A stretch of 64,000 bases of DNA. Source: Nitrospira sp. (lineage in GTDB: Bacteria; Nitrospirota; Nitrospiria; Nitrospirales; Nitrospiraceae). Positions 4,468 to 25,096 of the stretch are shown here, one piece after another. A program made the position numbers and the translations under genes. The notes under the pieces are model-generated. The model was not told the origin of the DNA. It searched no databases and was given only the letters and a program-made list of their open reading frames with translations. Numbering within the stretch: position 1 is the stretch's first letter; each line of letters opens with the position of its first letter. The stretch is taken from positions 610,013 through 674,012 of the forward strand of contig SWDI01000005.1 of the NCBI GenBank assembly GCA_005116955.1, in the 5' to 3' direction.

Positions 4468-4615
4468 GATGGTCTAGTGCGTGAACTGGCGTTGGAGGAT
4501 TGGCTGGTGATCGGACACGATCGAAGTCTAACAAAGGGGCTGGAGACGGTCAATTTATTCAAGTTTTTTGAGCCCCTACGATCAGGCACCATGGAACGGG
4601 GCTTAGACCAGTCGC

Positions 4616-6007
4616 TCACGCAGGAACCAGTGTGATGAACCACGGCGGAACTTCTTCGGTCATGAACGAGAACTTCCGAGCGGTGCTGCTCGCAGGAATG
4701 CCCGTGAAGGTGGCACCTCGGCTGATGCGGACATACCGAAAATGACCGGCACCGCCATCCATGGCAGAAGAGGAGCCTGACCCAAGATAGTGACGCCGAA
4801 GGGCTGCCACCCCAGCCAAGTCAATGGACTCGCCGATCGGGAGACCGGCCAGAACATGATAGACCTCGTCAAAAATGGTGGGCAGATTGACGGGGGTAAA
4901 AGGTTGGTCTAGCGGGCGATAGCGTGGCTCCTCCAATAACTGGGCGAGAAGCTCCCAAAATACCTGCGCATCCACTGCTCCCAGGACACACAGGAATCCG
5001 CGACGGGCAAGCAGGCTCAGGAGAGCAAGGGGGCCGACGATCTCAAACTTCCACGGCGGGAAGAGGAGGGCACGGCCAGCATGCTGGACTTCGAGCGCTG
5101 GTTCCTTCCCAAAGCGTGTCTGGTGAAAGACACCTTTGGTGCTCTCCAGTTCCTTCCGAATGAAAGCCTCAGAAAGCCTGGTCGGCTCATATGCGAAGGT
5201 CGGCGTGGCTGGGGCCCAACAGGTAGCAATGGTATATCGTGGGGCCAGCAACCCCTGTTTATCTAAATCACCAAGTGTGAACATGTCTTGATTGCCGAAG
5301 AAAGAGAACGACACCTCAGCTCTCTGCTGCAACTTCTGCAGCCTCTCCCGATTCGCATGGAGCGGACCGCCCAGTTGAGAACGAGGGTCGAGTCGATCCA
5401 GGCAATGGACAATGAACGGGTGGGGTTGTTTCGTGAGATCGGAGCCATACAGATCAACTAACTCCTCGGCGAAGGAGAGATCTCCGGCACCAATCTCCAA
5501 CACAGAGGCCACCTCAGTACGACGAAGGAGGTCAAATGGATTGTCCAACTGTCGCACGGCTTCTTCGACCTCCTCACTCGACAGGTGCGGCACGGGCCAC
5601 CTCACGGTAGCTGGAGGCACCAACTCAAAAAAGACGGCAAGTGCGCGGAGAGCTTTCGCCGGAGGAAGGCCTGTGACGGACTTGAGGCACTCTCCATCGA
5701 TATCCTGGACACGCTTGGGCACAGGCCGTTCAAAGAGACGCAACAAGGGTTCTTTTACTGAAACCGGAAGATCTGTGTCCTGAATAGCTTCAGCGAGTCG
5801 GGTAAAAGTAGAGGGGAAGATAGTACCTTCCATCAACTTCTTTGATGCCTCCCATTGTCCCGGCGACTGACGTGCGCGAATACTCACAACACGGCGGAAG
5901 TCAGCAAGCGGGTCGAGACTCATGAACGTGTCATCGTCGCGTATAGAAGTGGGTGTCGATTGGAATCCAAGGGTAGAAGCATAGTAATCTTCAAACTTCA
6001 GCGTCAA
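4616..6007 (-). CDS. Unrecognised protein with a SAM-methyltransferase-like motif
   Basis: A 463-aa soluble protein that I cannot place in a named family. Around residue 170 it has VASVLEIGAGDLSFAEELVD, which resembles motif I (the E/DxGxG loop) of class I methyltransferases. A plausible motif II acid follows in FIVHCLDRLDP. No later methyltransferase motif is obvious, and the C-terminal half (residues 300-463) shows no known signature. The longest frame starts with TTG at 6007; an ATG at 5923 (MSLDPLADFRR) would give 435 aa, and neither has a clear ribosome site. It is transcribed away from the ChaN-like gene, with which it shares a 42-bp (or ~126-bp) divergent region. Confidence 0.6.
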   Translation of the reverse strand: MTLKFEDYYASTLGFQSTPTSIRDDDTFMSLDPLADFRRVVSIRARQSPGQWEASKKLMEGTIFPSTFTRLAEAIQDTDLPVSVKEPLLRLFERPVPKRVQDIDGECLKSVTGLPPAKALRALAVFFELVPPATVRWPVPHLSSEEVEEAVRQLDNPFDLLRRTEVASVLEIGAGDLSFAEELVDLYGSDLTKQPHPFIVHCLDRLDPRSQLGGPLHANRERLQKLQQRAEVSFSFFGNQDMFTLGDLDKQGLLAPRYTIATCWAPATPTFAYEPTRLSEAFIRKELESTKGVFHQTRFGKEPALEVQHAGRALLFPPWKFEIVGPLALLSLLARRGFLCVLGAVDAQVFWELLAQLLEEPRYRPLDQPFTPVNLPTIFDEVYHVLAGLPIGESIDLAGVAALRRHYLGSGSSSAMDGGAGHFRYVRISRGATFTGIPASSTARKFSFMTEEVPPWFITLVPA

Positions 6008-22028: not shown

Positions 22029-22673
22029 TTATTTGTCGGTTGGCCGGCGAATGACGATCGCCATCCCGTCCACCAGCGACCAGGCCAAGGACTGCGCATG
22101 GTCGGCCGCGATGGTGAGTTGCAGATGAGGTGTCGGTGTTGATGGTACGTCGGTGAAGAGCGAGCTGGCCCAATGTTGCACGTGGTGCCACCATGATTTT
22201 CCCAGAATGGCGGCGCCGCGAAGGAGGGTTTCGCCGGCTGTCGAGGGAACCACGACAATGGTCATCGGAGGCGAACATGACAAGACATAGTCGGCAGGCA
22301 TGTCGGCGAGTGAAATCGGCTCCTGTTCACCCGCAGCACCCGGATCAATTTTTCGTCGGACGACTGATGGTCGCGCAACCAGCTTGTGTATCCCTTTTAA
22401 TTCGTTTCGCGATTCACCAGACCAGCGAATGATCGGAATCTGGTGGAGCCCGATGCCACGCCCTTTAATCTGGATGGTGCTCCCAACCAGATCGATCAGC
22501 ACATAGGTCTGCGGGCGTGCCGCGAGTTTGAGTTCTTCCTCAAGCACACGGGTTGCTTCTTTCAGTCCTTGTACGTCGCTGAGCTTCAGGTCGGGGAAGG
22601 CCTCGGGCTCCTTTCCCCAGCTTGGCATGGTGAAGACGAAGAGGATTAGAATGGCGCAGAGTTTCATCATCAA
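22029..22673 (-). CDS. Exported protein resembling a catalytically dead L,D-transpeptidase relative
   Basis: A 214-aa protein with a signal peptide (MKLCAILILFVFTMPSWG, cleaved near Gly-Lys). Residues ~35-50 are helical, then TYVLIDLVGSTIQIKGRGIG (~56-75) aligns by eye with the strand pair that opens the YkuD domain of its neighbours (YILVDTARNRLYVKRQDEVV). No HxxG or HGC motif follows; the rest instead has LSCSPPMTIVVVPS and a Trp/His-rich WWHHVQHW. It lies 21 bp downstream of an authentic L,D-transpeptidase in the same operon. I infer a non-catalytic paralogue or partner in peptidoglycan modification. This is inference; a short shared strand pattern could be coincidental. Confidence 0.55.
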   Translation of the reverse strand: MMMKLCAILILFVFTMPSWGKEPEAFPDLKLSDVQGLKEATRVLEEELKLAARPQTYVLIDLVGSTIQIKGRGIGLHQIPIIRWSGESRNELKGIHKLVARPSVVRRKIDPGAAGEQEPISLADMPADYVLSCSPPMTIVVVPSTAGETLLRGAAILGKSWWHHVQHWASSLFTDVPSTPTPHLQLTIAADHAQSLAWSLVDGMAIVIRRPTDK

Positions 22674-22694
22674 TATCTGCGCACTGTAGAGGGG

Positions 22695-23333
22695 TCAAAA
22701 GATCATGATTGGTGTCCCCACTCGAGCGAGCTGGTAGACACCTTTAAGATCGCTGTCGTTCAGCCGGATGCATCCATGTGTAACATTCTTGCCCAACAAT
22801 CGGGTATAGAGCGTCCCGTGGATGAAGTAGCCTTTTCCAAAACCCAGCGCATAATCCCCCAGTACACCTTGTTCTGCTCGTTCAGCGGCGTTTTGCGGAA
22901 CCGCGAGCCCTTCTTCGATAAATGCCCAATCTGGCTTGATCCAGGTGGGATTCGCTAATTTTGTCTTTACAAGAAACTCTCCACGGGGCGTATCGAAAAT
23001 CCACTGACTCTTGCTTTCGCCAGGCTTGTCGAGAATTGTTCCGCTCCCGGTCGAAGCAATCGCATTAAGGACCACCTCATCTTGACGCTTCACATACAGT
23101 CGATTCCTGGCCGTATCCACCAGGATATAGGGCTCGCGTGGCATGAGCTGTGATAACTGTTTGGAAAGCGTCTTGTACCGGGCTTGCAATGTACGAAGGC
23201 TGGTGTTGTCCTGAACAGCAGGCTGGTGAACCGCTTGGGAATCTTCAGGCGCTGCAGGATTAATAGACCGGGTACTGACGACCAGGAGGAGGAGCAAGAC
23301 GACCGCTGACGTGGCAAGAAGGAGTCGGCGCAT
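22695..23333 (-). CDS. L,D-transpeptidase (YkuD domain)
   Basis: A 212-aa protein with an N-terminal anchor or signal (LLLATSAVVLLLLLVVST), a short coiled segment (residues ~45-65), then the YkuD domain. The catalytic region is GYFIHGTLYTRLLGKNVTHG then CIRLND near residues 170-195, giving the conserved His, the THGC nucleophile and the Arg. Such enzymes form 3-3 crosslinks or attach proteins to peptidoglycan in the periplasm. It is third of four genes in a leftward operon; gaps are 9 bp on the upstream side and 21 bp on the downstream side. Confidence 0.92.
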   Translation of the reverse strand: MRRLLLATSAVVLLLLLVVSTRSINPAAPEDSQAVHQPAVQDNTSLRTLQARYKTLSKQLSQLMPREPYILVDTARNRLYVKRQDEVVLNAIASTGSGTILDKPGESKSQWIFDTPRGEFLVKTKLANPTWIKPDWAFIEEGLAVPQNAAERAEQGVLGDYALGFGKGYFIHGTLYTRLLGKNVTHGCIRLNDSDLKGVYQLARVGTPIMIF

Positions 23334-23342
23334 AGTCTACAC

Positions 23343-24476
23343 TCAGATTTGAGTTCTTCGCTGCGCAAGTTCCGATAATGCCAGGGCCACCGCGTTCTCC
23401 CTGGTCAAGGCACCAACGATCGTGACCGGTGTCCCGACAGAAACGCCTTCGAAGAGCATCGCCATATTCGGATTATCGAGCATGATACACCCAAGGGTCC
23501 GAGCCAATAGTTCATTGTCGGCTCCATGGATCTCGATTTGGCCACCAATGCCTTTGGCCGGGCTGATCCTTCCCGACTTTTTCGCATAGTTGAATCGCCG
23601 TCGATCTTCGGCATTAGGATAATCCAGCGCCAGGGCTCTGTAGAATTGCGTTTGCCCTGAACCGCGCTTATCCGTCACACGATACCGACCTTCCGGTGTC
23701 GCCCCGTCCCCCTGGACCTGCTTTTCCAGCATGCCATTGAATCCTAACCGGACAGGGTATGATAGCACCCTCCGCCCGCTCTTGTAGAGTATCAATTCTC
23801 GGTCGGCCTTGCTCACCACGATGGCCGTTGATTGGTGAATGCGTGACCACTCGATCGTCTGCCTGGCCATCGTCTGCCAATGGGCGATTCGGTTCTCGTC
23901 GGCATATCGTCCCAATTCTTGACTGAGTAATGCCGTCTGGGCCTTGATCGCATGATCCGCTTTCTCCGCCGCGTGCATGGCTCGTTGGAAGTCTTTTTGT
24001 TCGAAGAAGGAGCGCGCTTGTTTCACCAGAAGATCTGTTTGAACGACTCTTTCTCCCAGGAGGATACGCCCATCGATCGCTTCGATCCTCGAGGTAATCG
24101 CATGAAGCTGTTCTTCAAGGCGAGCCACCGTGGCTTGCGCCGTGCGGTGCTGCGAGGCTTGCCGCTCGTGGAGCTGGGAGACGGTACGTTCGCTCGTGAT
24201 GTACAGCCGGCGGAGTTCATTCTCAAGATCACTCGCTTCCCATGGCCATCTGATCAGATCATCGTCCAATTGGACACGCGCTTTCAGAGAGACCCATTGG
24301 CGAACAAACTGCCTATACTCCTCAGGCGCAGCTTCCGGAGCCCGCAATGCGATCAAGTCTTGGTCGATGGCCTCAAGGGCAACAAGGAGGTCTGGCGGAA
24401 CAGCTTGAACACACCCGGCCAAGCAGAGGACGCAGAGAATTGCGGTAAGCGTCGTATGTGTCTGGTCAAGCGCCAT
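23343..24476 (-). CDS. L,D-transpeptidase lipoprotein with coiled-coil N-terminus
   Basis: A 377-aa protein. The signal ends in a lipobox (LCLAGC, Cys ~22). Residues ~30-210 are helical and rich in Gln/Glu/Arg, predicted coiled coil. The YkuD domain begins at AIVVSKADRELILYKSGRRV (~220) and ends with IEIHGADNELLARTLGCIML near 325-345. The catalytic His and Cys are present, but the Arg that normally follows the Cys (GCIR) is replaced by Met, and the residue before GC is Leu instead of His. Gap to the upstream lipoprotein gene is 8 bp. Probably an envelope enzyme tethered to a lipid anchor; activity with the altered motif is uncertain. Confidence 0.87.
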   Translation of the reverse strand: MALDQTHTTLTAILCVLCLAGCVQAVPPDLLVALEAIDQDLIALRAPEAAPEEYRQFVRQWVSLKARVQLDDDLIRWPWEASDLENELRRLYITSERTVSQLHERQASQHRTAQATVARLEEQLHAITSRIEAIDGRILLGERVVQTDLLVKQARSFFEQKDFQRAMHAAEKADHAIKAQTALLSQELGRYADENRIAHWQTMARQTIEWSRIHQSTAIVVSKADRELILYKSGRRVLSYPVRLGFNGMLEKQVQGDGATPEGRYRVTDKRGSGQTQFYRALALDYPNAEDRRRFNYAKKSGRISPAKGIGGQIEIHGADNELLARTLGCIMLDNPNMAMLFEGVSVGTPVTIVGALTRENAVALALSELAQRRTQI

Positions 24477-24484
24477 GCCGTGCG

Positions 24485-25096
24485 TTATCTTTTCCTCGCA
24501 GGTCTTCCTTTGCCCACCTTCGCGAGCGCGTTCTGTATTTCGGCTGACACGCTTTGGCTCATGTCATGAATGGCCTTCGCCTGGGTTTGCGCAGCCGGAT
24601 AATCTTCTTTGTCGATCGATGCCTGAACCTGTTTCAGTAACGACTTGAGCCCTTCTACGTCGTTCCTGATAGCCTCCACTGCGGCGCGATCTTTTCCAAC
24701 CGGTGCCTTGGCGACCAAATCTTGGGTGGCTTTCACTGCCTCTTCGGCGACTTGTTGAGCTTGTAAAGCGGCTGCCTTCGCCTCTTCCTTCTTTAGGGTC
24801 GCGGCCGTCTTGATCCGTTCACTATCGGCTTTGGCCGAGGCAGACAATTGTTGGGCCTTGCCATAGTCTCGAAAGAGTGAGAATTTTCCATCCTGATCGG
24901 TGACTTCTTTCCGCAATGTGGTAAGGGTACCTTCCAGCTTGGCATACTCTTCAGCGCTATAGGTAGCCGCGCCGCTTTCCTGTGCATCTTTGAGAGCCTT
25001 TTCTGCTTCCTGGATCTGCTGGGTCGGAGGTTCCGCACATCCAGCAATCATAATGAGAGTCAAGGTTAGAGAGACAAGAGATGCTTTTCTCAACAT
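24485..25096 (-). CDS. DUF4398-type lipoprotein, largely helical
   Basis: A 203-aa protein, first gene of the envelope operon. Signal with lipobox LTLIMIAGC (Cys ~20). Residues 30-100 show the pattern IQEAEKALKDAQESGAATYS then YAKLEGTLTTLRKE, typical of the DUF4398 helical domain, and the rest is Ala/Lys/Glu/Gln-rich coiled coil ending in a basic RPARKR. Proteins of this type occur near outer-membrane or peptidoglycan-associated genes. With two L,D-transpeptidases downstream it may act as a periplasmic spacer or scaffold (inference). Confidence 0.8.
   Translation of the reverse strand: MLRKASLVSLTLTLIMIAGCAEPPTQQIQEAEKALKDAQESGAATYSAEEYAKLEGTLTTLRKEVTDQDGKFSLFRDYGKAQQLSASAKADSERIKTAATLKKEEAKAAALQAQQVAEEAVKATQDLVAKAPVGKDRAAVEAIRNDVEGLKSLLKQVQASIDKEDYPAAQTQAKAIHDMSQSVSAEIQNALAKVGKGRPARKR

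Follow-up and report, generated by a model that had tools for sequence, protein, structure and literature searches.

The question raised by a short operon of Nitrospira sp. is what an exported protein without catalytic residues does directly behind two genes of the YkuD family, to which the L,D-transpeptidases (LDTs) belong. The operon is located on the minus strand of contig SWDI01000005.1 (assembly GCA_005116955.1), within the stretch of 64,000 nucleotides analysed here, which is referred to as the window. It comprises four closely spaced open reading frames (ORFs; positions 25096-22029, from the ORF list and the sequence) encoding, in this order, a lipoprotein, the two YkuD-domain proteins LdtA and LdtB, and the protein in question, designated X. 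An earlier interpretation of the DNA letters (termed the sequence-only reading) had described X as a putative dead LDT, based on a strand pair resembling the start of the YkuD domain in its neighbors. According to our results, X is very probably a catalytically dead, YkuD-related paralog. The best explanation for its presence, to which we assign a probability of about 0.6, is that LdtB has X as its pseudoenzyme partner in a module for the attachment of a lipoprotein to peptidoglycan and its detachment.

The relationship of X to LdtB was analyzed by profile-profile alignment (hhalign). Genus-level profiles resulted in a short match covering a helix and the first strand pair (P 2.9e-4). Class-wide profiles (107 and 108 sequences) yielded a score of 44 (probability 86.5%, E 4.6e-6), which was reached by none of 60 controls with shuffled columns (control maximum 26.9). 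With phylum-wide profiles (125 sequences each), the score was 48.4 (91.6%, E 8.1e-7) over 153 columns, and again no column-shuffled control out of 100 reached this value (maximum 21.5). By comparison, LdtA and LdtB, whose homology is accepted, score 51 with class-wide profiles. The strand pair pointed out in the sequence-only reading (TYVLIDLVGSTIQIK / YILVDTARNRLYVK) forms the core of this significant match. In the alignment, DYVLSCSPPMTI pairs with DYALGFGKGYFI, and LQLTIAADHAQSLAWSLVDGMAIVI pairs with the LdtB segment that comprises HGCIRL, a helix, and the final strand; these pairs make structural sense. The paralogy proposed for X and a transpeptidase is thus supported by hhalign as well as by the bridging family and the Foldseek comparison described below, and it applies to LdtB, not to LdtA, for which no profile similarity to X was detectable. 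A hit to a family without a link to transpeptidases was not obtained in the profile comparison, and when the sequences of the PDB were searched with a hidden Markov model (HMM) of X, nothing beyond a chance hit was returned.

A second family of exported proteins, designated Y (165-175 amino acids), was found in a Nitrospirota family labeled f20; here and below, the labels for genera (g), families (f), genomes (G), and loci (L) are working labels of this analysis. In five of the six loci read, the Y gene follows an LDT gene, which differs from LdtB and carries the motif THGC[VI]S. The best single Y protein matches the X profile with an E value of 4e-6 and the LdtB profile with 4e-5, the latter in two stretches, one N-terminal and one C-terminal. 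A profile built from five Y sequences matches X over 106 columns (96.2%, E 2.4e-9) and LdtB over 124 columns (88.9%, E 2.4e-6), and the C-terminal half of Y alone still matches LdtB (E 1.2e-4, 0/100 controls). The His/Cys motif is missing in Y, which also gave no convincing Pfam match. Judged from these alignments, Y is a putative second dead family that bridges X and LdtB.

The structure of X was predicted with AlphaFold2 for the protein of the window (57 sequences; predicted local distance difference test (pLDDT) 79.8, predicted template modeling score (pTM) 0.72), for which most strands have a pLDDT >90, and for the domain of a relative with 34% identity (pLDDT 79.3, pTM 0.73). The former model contains strands at residues 55-60, 65-70, 73-79, 94-97, 128-133, 136-143, and 182-188, followed by a helix (189-198) and a further strand (204-208). 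Both models display the strand and helix order of YkuD domains; in addition, a helical segment is inserted between the strands on which LDTs carry HGT and HGC. This Trp-rich insertion, which is predicted with low confidence, occupies the place of the LDT loop between the two motifs. When both models were compared with the PDB using Foldseek, all 50 hits listed belonged to the YkuD family (best E approximately 3e-4, probability 0.97-1.00), and no confident unrelated fold appeared.

The absence of the His...HGC motif, noted before for the single protein, extends to all relatives aligned: each of the 107 class-level and 125 phylum-level sequences lacks both the His and the Cys of the catalytic motif HG..[ST]HGC. 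The equivalent positions are occupied by variable or hydrophobic residues, and a conserved Cys is not found anywhere in the alignment. Instead, the invariant or nearly invariant residues of X (E46, A50, Y56, K69, G72, D123-M124-P125, and W197) are located outside the old active site, and a natural guess is that they form a binding surface. The ratio of nonsynonymous to synonymous substitution rates (dN/dS) of X and its close relatives is 0.15-0.25 by simple Nei-Gojobori counts, indicating purifying selection. Together with the long-range conservation, this ruled out X as a decaying pseudogene.

The neighboring genes give an indication of the process in which X may be involved. LdtB matches Pfam PF03734 (E 1.2e-20) and carries the intact motif HGT...THGCIR with H172, H186, C188, and R190; His, His, Cys, and Arg are present at these positions in 123 of 125 relatives. 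Its YkuD domain and motif, including the transpeptidase Arg, are the signature of an LDT, as which LdtB is annotated here. LdtA also belongs to PF03734 (E 1.3e-18), with the catalytic residues H317 (23528-23526) and C330 (23489-23487), and has Met instead of Arg two residues after the Cys. An Arg at this position separates LDTs, which have it, from DpaA-like proteins, which do not (PMC8263019). The closest solved chain to LdtA is 8ikr (E 1.2e-5), the Escherichia coli amidase DpaA that releases the Braun lipoprotein from peptidoglycan (PMC10653827); the L,D-carboxypeptidases Csd6 and Pgp2 rank next. Among 112 LdtA copies in operons, the catalytic Cys is kept in all, and the residue at Cys+2 is Met, Ala, Gly, Ser, or Gln, never Arg. 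Since LdtA scores far below the cutoff of the NCBIfam DpaA model NF040599 (29.3 bits vs. 365), the assignment is limited to a DpaA-like hydrolase. From its sequence features, LdtA looks like a hydrolase of the DpaA/Csd6/Pgp2 branch, and a role as transpeptidase is disfavored. Of the gene products listed in the sequence-only reading (one lipoprotein, two LDTs, and a third exported protein), the YkuD assignment of both neighbors and the export of X were therefore retained, whereas LdtA appears to be of the hydrolase type and has a lipobox (LAGC) of its own, which raises the number of lipoprotein-like products to two.

The first gene product was considered as a member of the Lpp/OprI family and rejected, its score with NF040598 being 16.9 bits at a cutoff of 43. 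Its C-terminal tail is basic (...GKGRPARKR in the window, positions 24485-24512) and ends with Arg. Basic tails are also found in its relatives (e.g., GKGKPSAAKKK), often with a final Lys or KKK and in some cases with other residues. The tail recalls the C-terminus of Lpp, which ends with Lys and mediates the attachment to peptidoglycan; this likeness is no more than suggestive. Two genomes of genus g11 (L138 and L139) contain an additional lipoprotein-LdtA pair directly upstream of the four-gene operon as a tandem duplication.

A restriction of X to Nitrospira was considered and rejected, since X occurs throughout the phylum. Within the genus, 32 of 35 genomes contain it (including the source genome), and within the class, 134 of 270 do. 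A diverse profile detected X in 105 of the 396 genomes sampled from the phylum. The order lipoprotein-LdtA-LdtB-X is found class-wide wherever the contig permits and the operon is intact, with a median gap of 27 bp between LdtB and X (139 loci). Among 20 distant loci of the phylum, 19 show the full order, the X gene of one of them running into masked bases; for the remaining locus, the neighboring genes were not found on the stretch examined. The position of X directly after an LDT gene, which had been suggested for comparison in other Nitrospira, is therefore invariable in this genus and across the phylum. Operon-type LdtB, defined by an E value below 1e-80, is present in 104 of the 396 genomes, of which 103 also contain X; in the last one, LdtB ends at a contig edge (hand tally). 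X without an operon-type LdtB was seen in G139, in which a deletion took the lipoprotein gene, LdtA, and the front of LdtB, in G241 as a fragment with a stop, and in G398 as a remnant (E 6e-6). Two incomplete operon copies (L043 and L102) are located on the same 58-kb contig of a metagenome-assembled genome (JABMDK010000023.1). Each has one defect, either the missing front of LdtA or the missing end of X, and the pair is either an assembly chimera or a rearrangement.

LdtB and X were also lost together. In the genera g24, g19, g20, and g14 and in part of g27, LdtA is present and both other genes are gone; in g24, pgi is located directly after LdtA. The catalytic Cys of LdtA is replaced in all 30 copies read from g24, g19, and g14 (28 Ser, 2 Gly; L181-L185, L187, and L191-L214; motif HG...QPYGSI), which corresponds to 30 of the 34 LdtA copies without LdtB and X, as opposed to its retention in 112/112 copies within operons. 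Because a single ancestral loss is common to many g24 genomes, the number of independent events behind these copies is small, with g24/g19 and g14 as the minimum according to the residue pattern. With the Ser/Gly variants, this operon may have given rise to another YkuD protein that is a pseudoenzyme or has been retooled. LdtA without LdtB retains its Cys in g20 and in three g27 genomes, one of them near a contig end; the lipoproteins are fragmentary in these cases, an LdtB remnant is left in one, and the loss of LdtB and X looks recent. Several stages of decay are visible in g27 (L188, L189, L215, L216, and L217), comprising the joint removal of LdtB and X, an LdtB remnant, lipoprotein fragments, and LdtA genes with stops. 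A lipoprotein gene paired with an LdtB-like gene (motif THGCIQ), without LdtA or X, was observed as a second locus of G055 (L258, positions 4469-6001).

As X and LdtB are kept and lost together, X is probably an obligate, nonenzymatic partner. The occurrence of X only with both enzymes and the degeneration of LdtA upon the loss of LdtB and X support the assumption that LdtA acts on the product of LdtB and that X belongs to LdtB. In the proposed mechanism, LdtB would link an amine, perhaps that of the lipoprotein tail, to meso-diaminopimelate, and the DpaA-like LdtA would hydrolyze the bond made by LdtB. X would bind LdtB or present its substrate and thereby control or tune the forward reaction, so that the whole operon may run an attach/detach cycle at the interface of outer membrane and peptidoglycan. 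We regard X as a probable functional partner of LdtB, with which it would interact physically and which it would control; a regulator of a transpeptidase, as proposed from the sequence, is what it may be.

Several points weigh against this interpretation. Homology to LdtB, catalytic loss, purifying selection, linkage, and co-loss are computed results; from them we infer all physical contacts and the direction in which control would be exerted. Genus g9 has the lipoprotein and LdtB without LdtA and X (L176, L177, and L254), and LdtB-type enzymes therefore do not universally need X; in g9, the transpeptidase Arg is replaced by Gln (THGCIQ) in two aligned copies and at a third locus. The co-loss of adjacent operon genes can be due to one deletion and does not require interaction of their products. 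On the side of homology, X has no match in Pfam and NCBIfam, and 21 diverse relatives have none in Pfam either. The C-terminal half of X alone gave a marginal result with LdtB in phylum-wide profiles (score 18.6, 1/100 controls) and no significant one in class-wide alignments. The TM-scores of the two X models to YkuD structures are 0.31-0.38 and 0.39-0.47 (query length) with a root-mean-square deviation of mostly 7-13. A TM-score below 0.5 is under the usual mark for the same fold. Owing to the low TM-scores and large deviations, the global superposition of X on YkuD is poor; the predicted fold is called YkuD-related on the combined evidence, and the TM-score is not the basis of this assignment.

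X might act on the substrate rather than on the enzyme: as an adaptor, or itself as a tether, it would hold stem peptides or the lipoprotein's basic tail. This would fit with the binding of peptidoglycan stem peptides by the YkuD scaffold, with the position of the conserved surface of X away from the lost active site, and with the conserved basic C-terminus of the lipoprotein. This role nevertheless appears unlikely to us: it leaves unexplained why X is tied to LdtB and not to the lipoprotein, which occurs without X both next to LdtB (g9) and next to LdtA (g19, g14, and g20).

It is considerably less plausible that X partners or regulates the DpaA-like LdtA and hence detachment. Such a role would agree with the lack of X in g9, where LdtA is missing, so that X is found only where both enzymes occur; however, LdtA is retained without X in g24, g19, g20, and g14, with loss of its Cys in three of these genera, and X is homologous to LdtB with no detectable homology to LdtA. 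About as doubtful is a merely local likeness, in which X would share the N-terminal helix and the strand pair with LdtB and otherwise be an unrelated exported beta protein. The bulk of the profile signal does lie in residues 36-80, as would be expected in this case along with the weak C-terminal part and the TM-scores below 0.5. Against it stand the length of the phylum-wide alignment (153 columns), the independent match of the C-terminal half of Y to LdtB in addition to the 106 columns that Y shares with X, and the Foldseek alignments, which cover approximately 160 columns with the YkuD domain in each of the top 50 hits. A new enzymatic activity of X on the old scaffold is similarly improbable. 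In its favor, active-site swaps are known in the superfamily (serine in Lpg1514; PMC13400389), and K69 and D123 are invariant. However, a conserved Ser/Cys/His nucleophile set is missing, the invariant polar residues are scattered between the first pair of strands and the turn formed by DMP, and the old active-site positions are hydrophobic or variable.

As the putative partner of LdtB, X can be compared with known systems. It resembles YkuD-family LDTs (PF03734; the LdtE/ErfK group, Bacillus subtilis YkuD, LdtMt2) in predicted topology, domain-wide profile homology, and secretion, and its gene is paired with that of a true LDT; it differs in the lack of HG..HGC and of the Arg after the Cys, in the helical insertion at this place, and in remaining below Pfam detection. 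LdtA is nearest to E. coli DpaA (YafK/LdtF), Csd6, and Pgp2, which likewise lack the LDT Arg at Cys+2, whereas LdtA is a predicted lipoprotein with a long coiled coil, whose gene shares a single operon with those of X, an LDT, and a further lipoprotein. EnvC, NlpD, and ActS are degenerate LytM activators of peptidoglycan amidases (PMC8360153). By analogy, X may be another secreted, dead member of a peptidoglycan-enzyme fold that partners a live enzyme; these activators differ from X in fold and enzyme class, and X derives from the family of the adjacent enzyme. For LdtJ of Acinetobacter baumannii, an LDT, a role independent of the catalytic cysteine was reported (PMC12548408), but LdtJ itself is an active enzyme, while X is dead throughout the phylum. 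The Legionella YafK-family protein Lpg1514 uses serine for beta-lactam hydrolysis (PMC13400389). The E. coli system of Lpp (Braun lipoprotein), LdtA/B/C, and DpaA consists in principle of the same parts, namely a lipoprotein, an attaching LDT, and a detaching amidase. In E. coli, these parts are scattered and X is absent; here, they form a single operon with a longer lipoprotein, whose match to Lpp is far under the cutoff.

Beta-lactam tolerance and the anchoring of the outer membrane are set by LDTs, about whose control little is known. X is the first putative pseudoenzyme partner in the LDT fold that we are aware of. Full-text literature searches, in which subscription papers are sparsely covered, revealed no paper joining "pseudoenzyme" with "transpeptidase", and the text of a 2025 LDT review, as far as reached by a term search, does not mention noncatalytic family members. 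The chances are even that X founds a novel type of regulator of the cell envelope, namely a pseudo-LDT acting phylum-wide as the obligate partner of an active one, with Y and its LDT as a second, related pair in another Nitrospirota family. If true, the pairing of a dead and a live LDT would be a general means of controlling the attachment of lipoproteins to peptidoglycan. Its persistence throughout a phylum opens LDT control to testing, and the succession of losses, first of LdtB jointly with X and then of the Cys of LdtA, predicts which proteins work together. The four genes represent a compact candidate attach/detach system for outer-membrane tethering outside the Proteobacteria.

The features of the operon and the copies of family Y are compiled in Table 1.

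Table 1. Coordinates of the operon genes, of motifs and domains of their products, and of the family Y copies (the latter numbered within their own loci)
Feature	Position	Strand	Basis and remarks
Gene 1, outer-membrane-type lipoprotein, 203 amino acids	24485-25096	-	ORF; lipobox IAGC, coiled coil
Gene 2, LdtA, 377 amino acids	23343-24476	-	Pfam YkuD; lipobox LAGC, coiled-coil region, C-terminal YkuD domain
Gene 3, LdtB, 212 amino acids	22695-23333	-	Pfam YkuD; signal anchor, short helix, YkuD domain
Catalytic motif THGC of LdtB (missing from X)	22770-22781	-	Sequence
Gene 4, X, predicted exported pseudo-L,D-transpeptidase	22029-22670	-	213 amino acids; 212 from ATG 22667
YkuD-like domain of X, residues 55-208	22047-22508	-	AlphaFold2 model, Foldseek
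Trp-rich helix insertion of X, residues 149-171	22158-22226	-	AlphaFold2, low confidence (pLDDT 55-66)
Family Y copy, L251	4525-5052
Family Y copy, L253	4843-5340
Family Y copy, L255	5069-5590
Family Y copy, L256	4077-3496
Family Y copy, L257	3976-3443

The arrangement of the four genes with gaps of 8, 9, and 21 bp was reproduced on the minus strand, the last value being valid for the listed start codon of X, TTG 22673. This start is unlikely; ATG codons are located at 22670 and 22667, and most relatives align to the latter. With either ATG, the gap between LdtB and X is 24-27 bp. A scan for promoters and terminators yielded no more sites than shuffled sequences, and a transcript boundary is therefore not claimed. 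The operon is flanked by pgi (21631-19940) and, on the opposite strand from approximately 25.8 kb, by a block of rnpA, yidD, and yidC-like genes, identified from their translations. The ldtB gene of the window (22695-23333) has synonymous distances (dS) of 0.5-0.66 to its nearest relatives (L036, L038, L040, and L042), about the same as to other clades, in contrast to X and the lipoprotein gene, for which dS to the same loci is 0.14-0.22. This difference may be a sign of homologous recombination within the operon.

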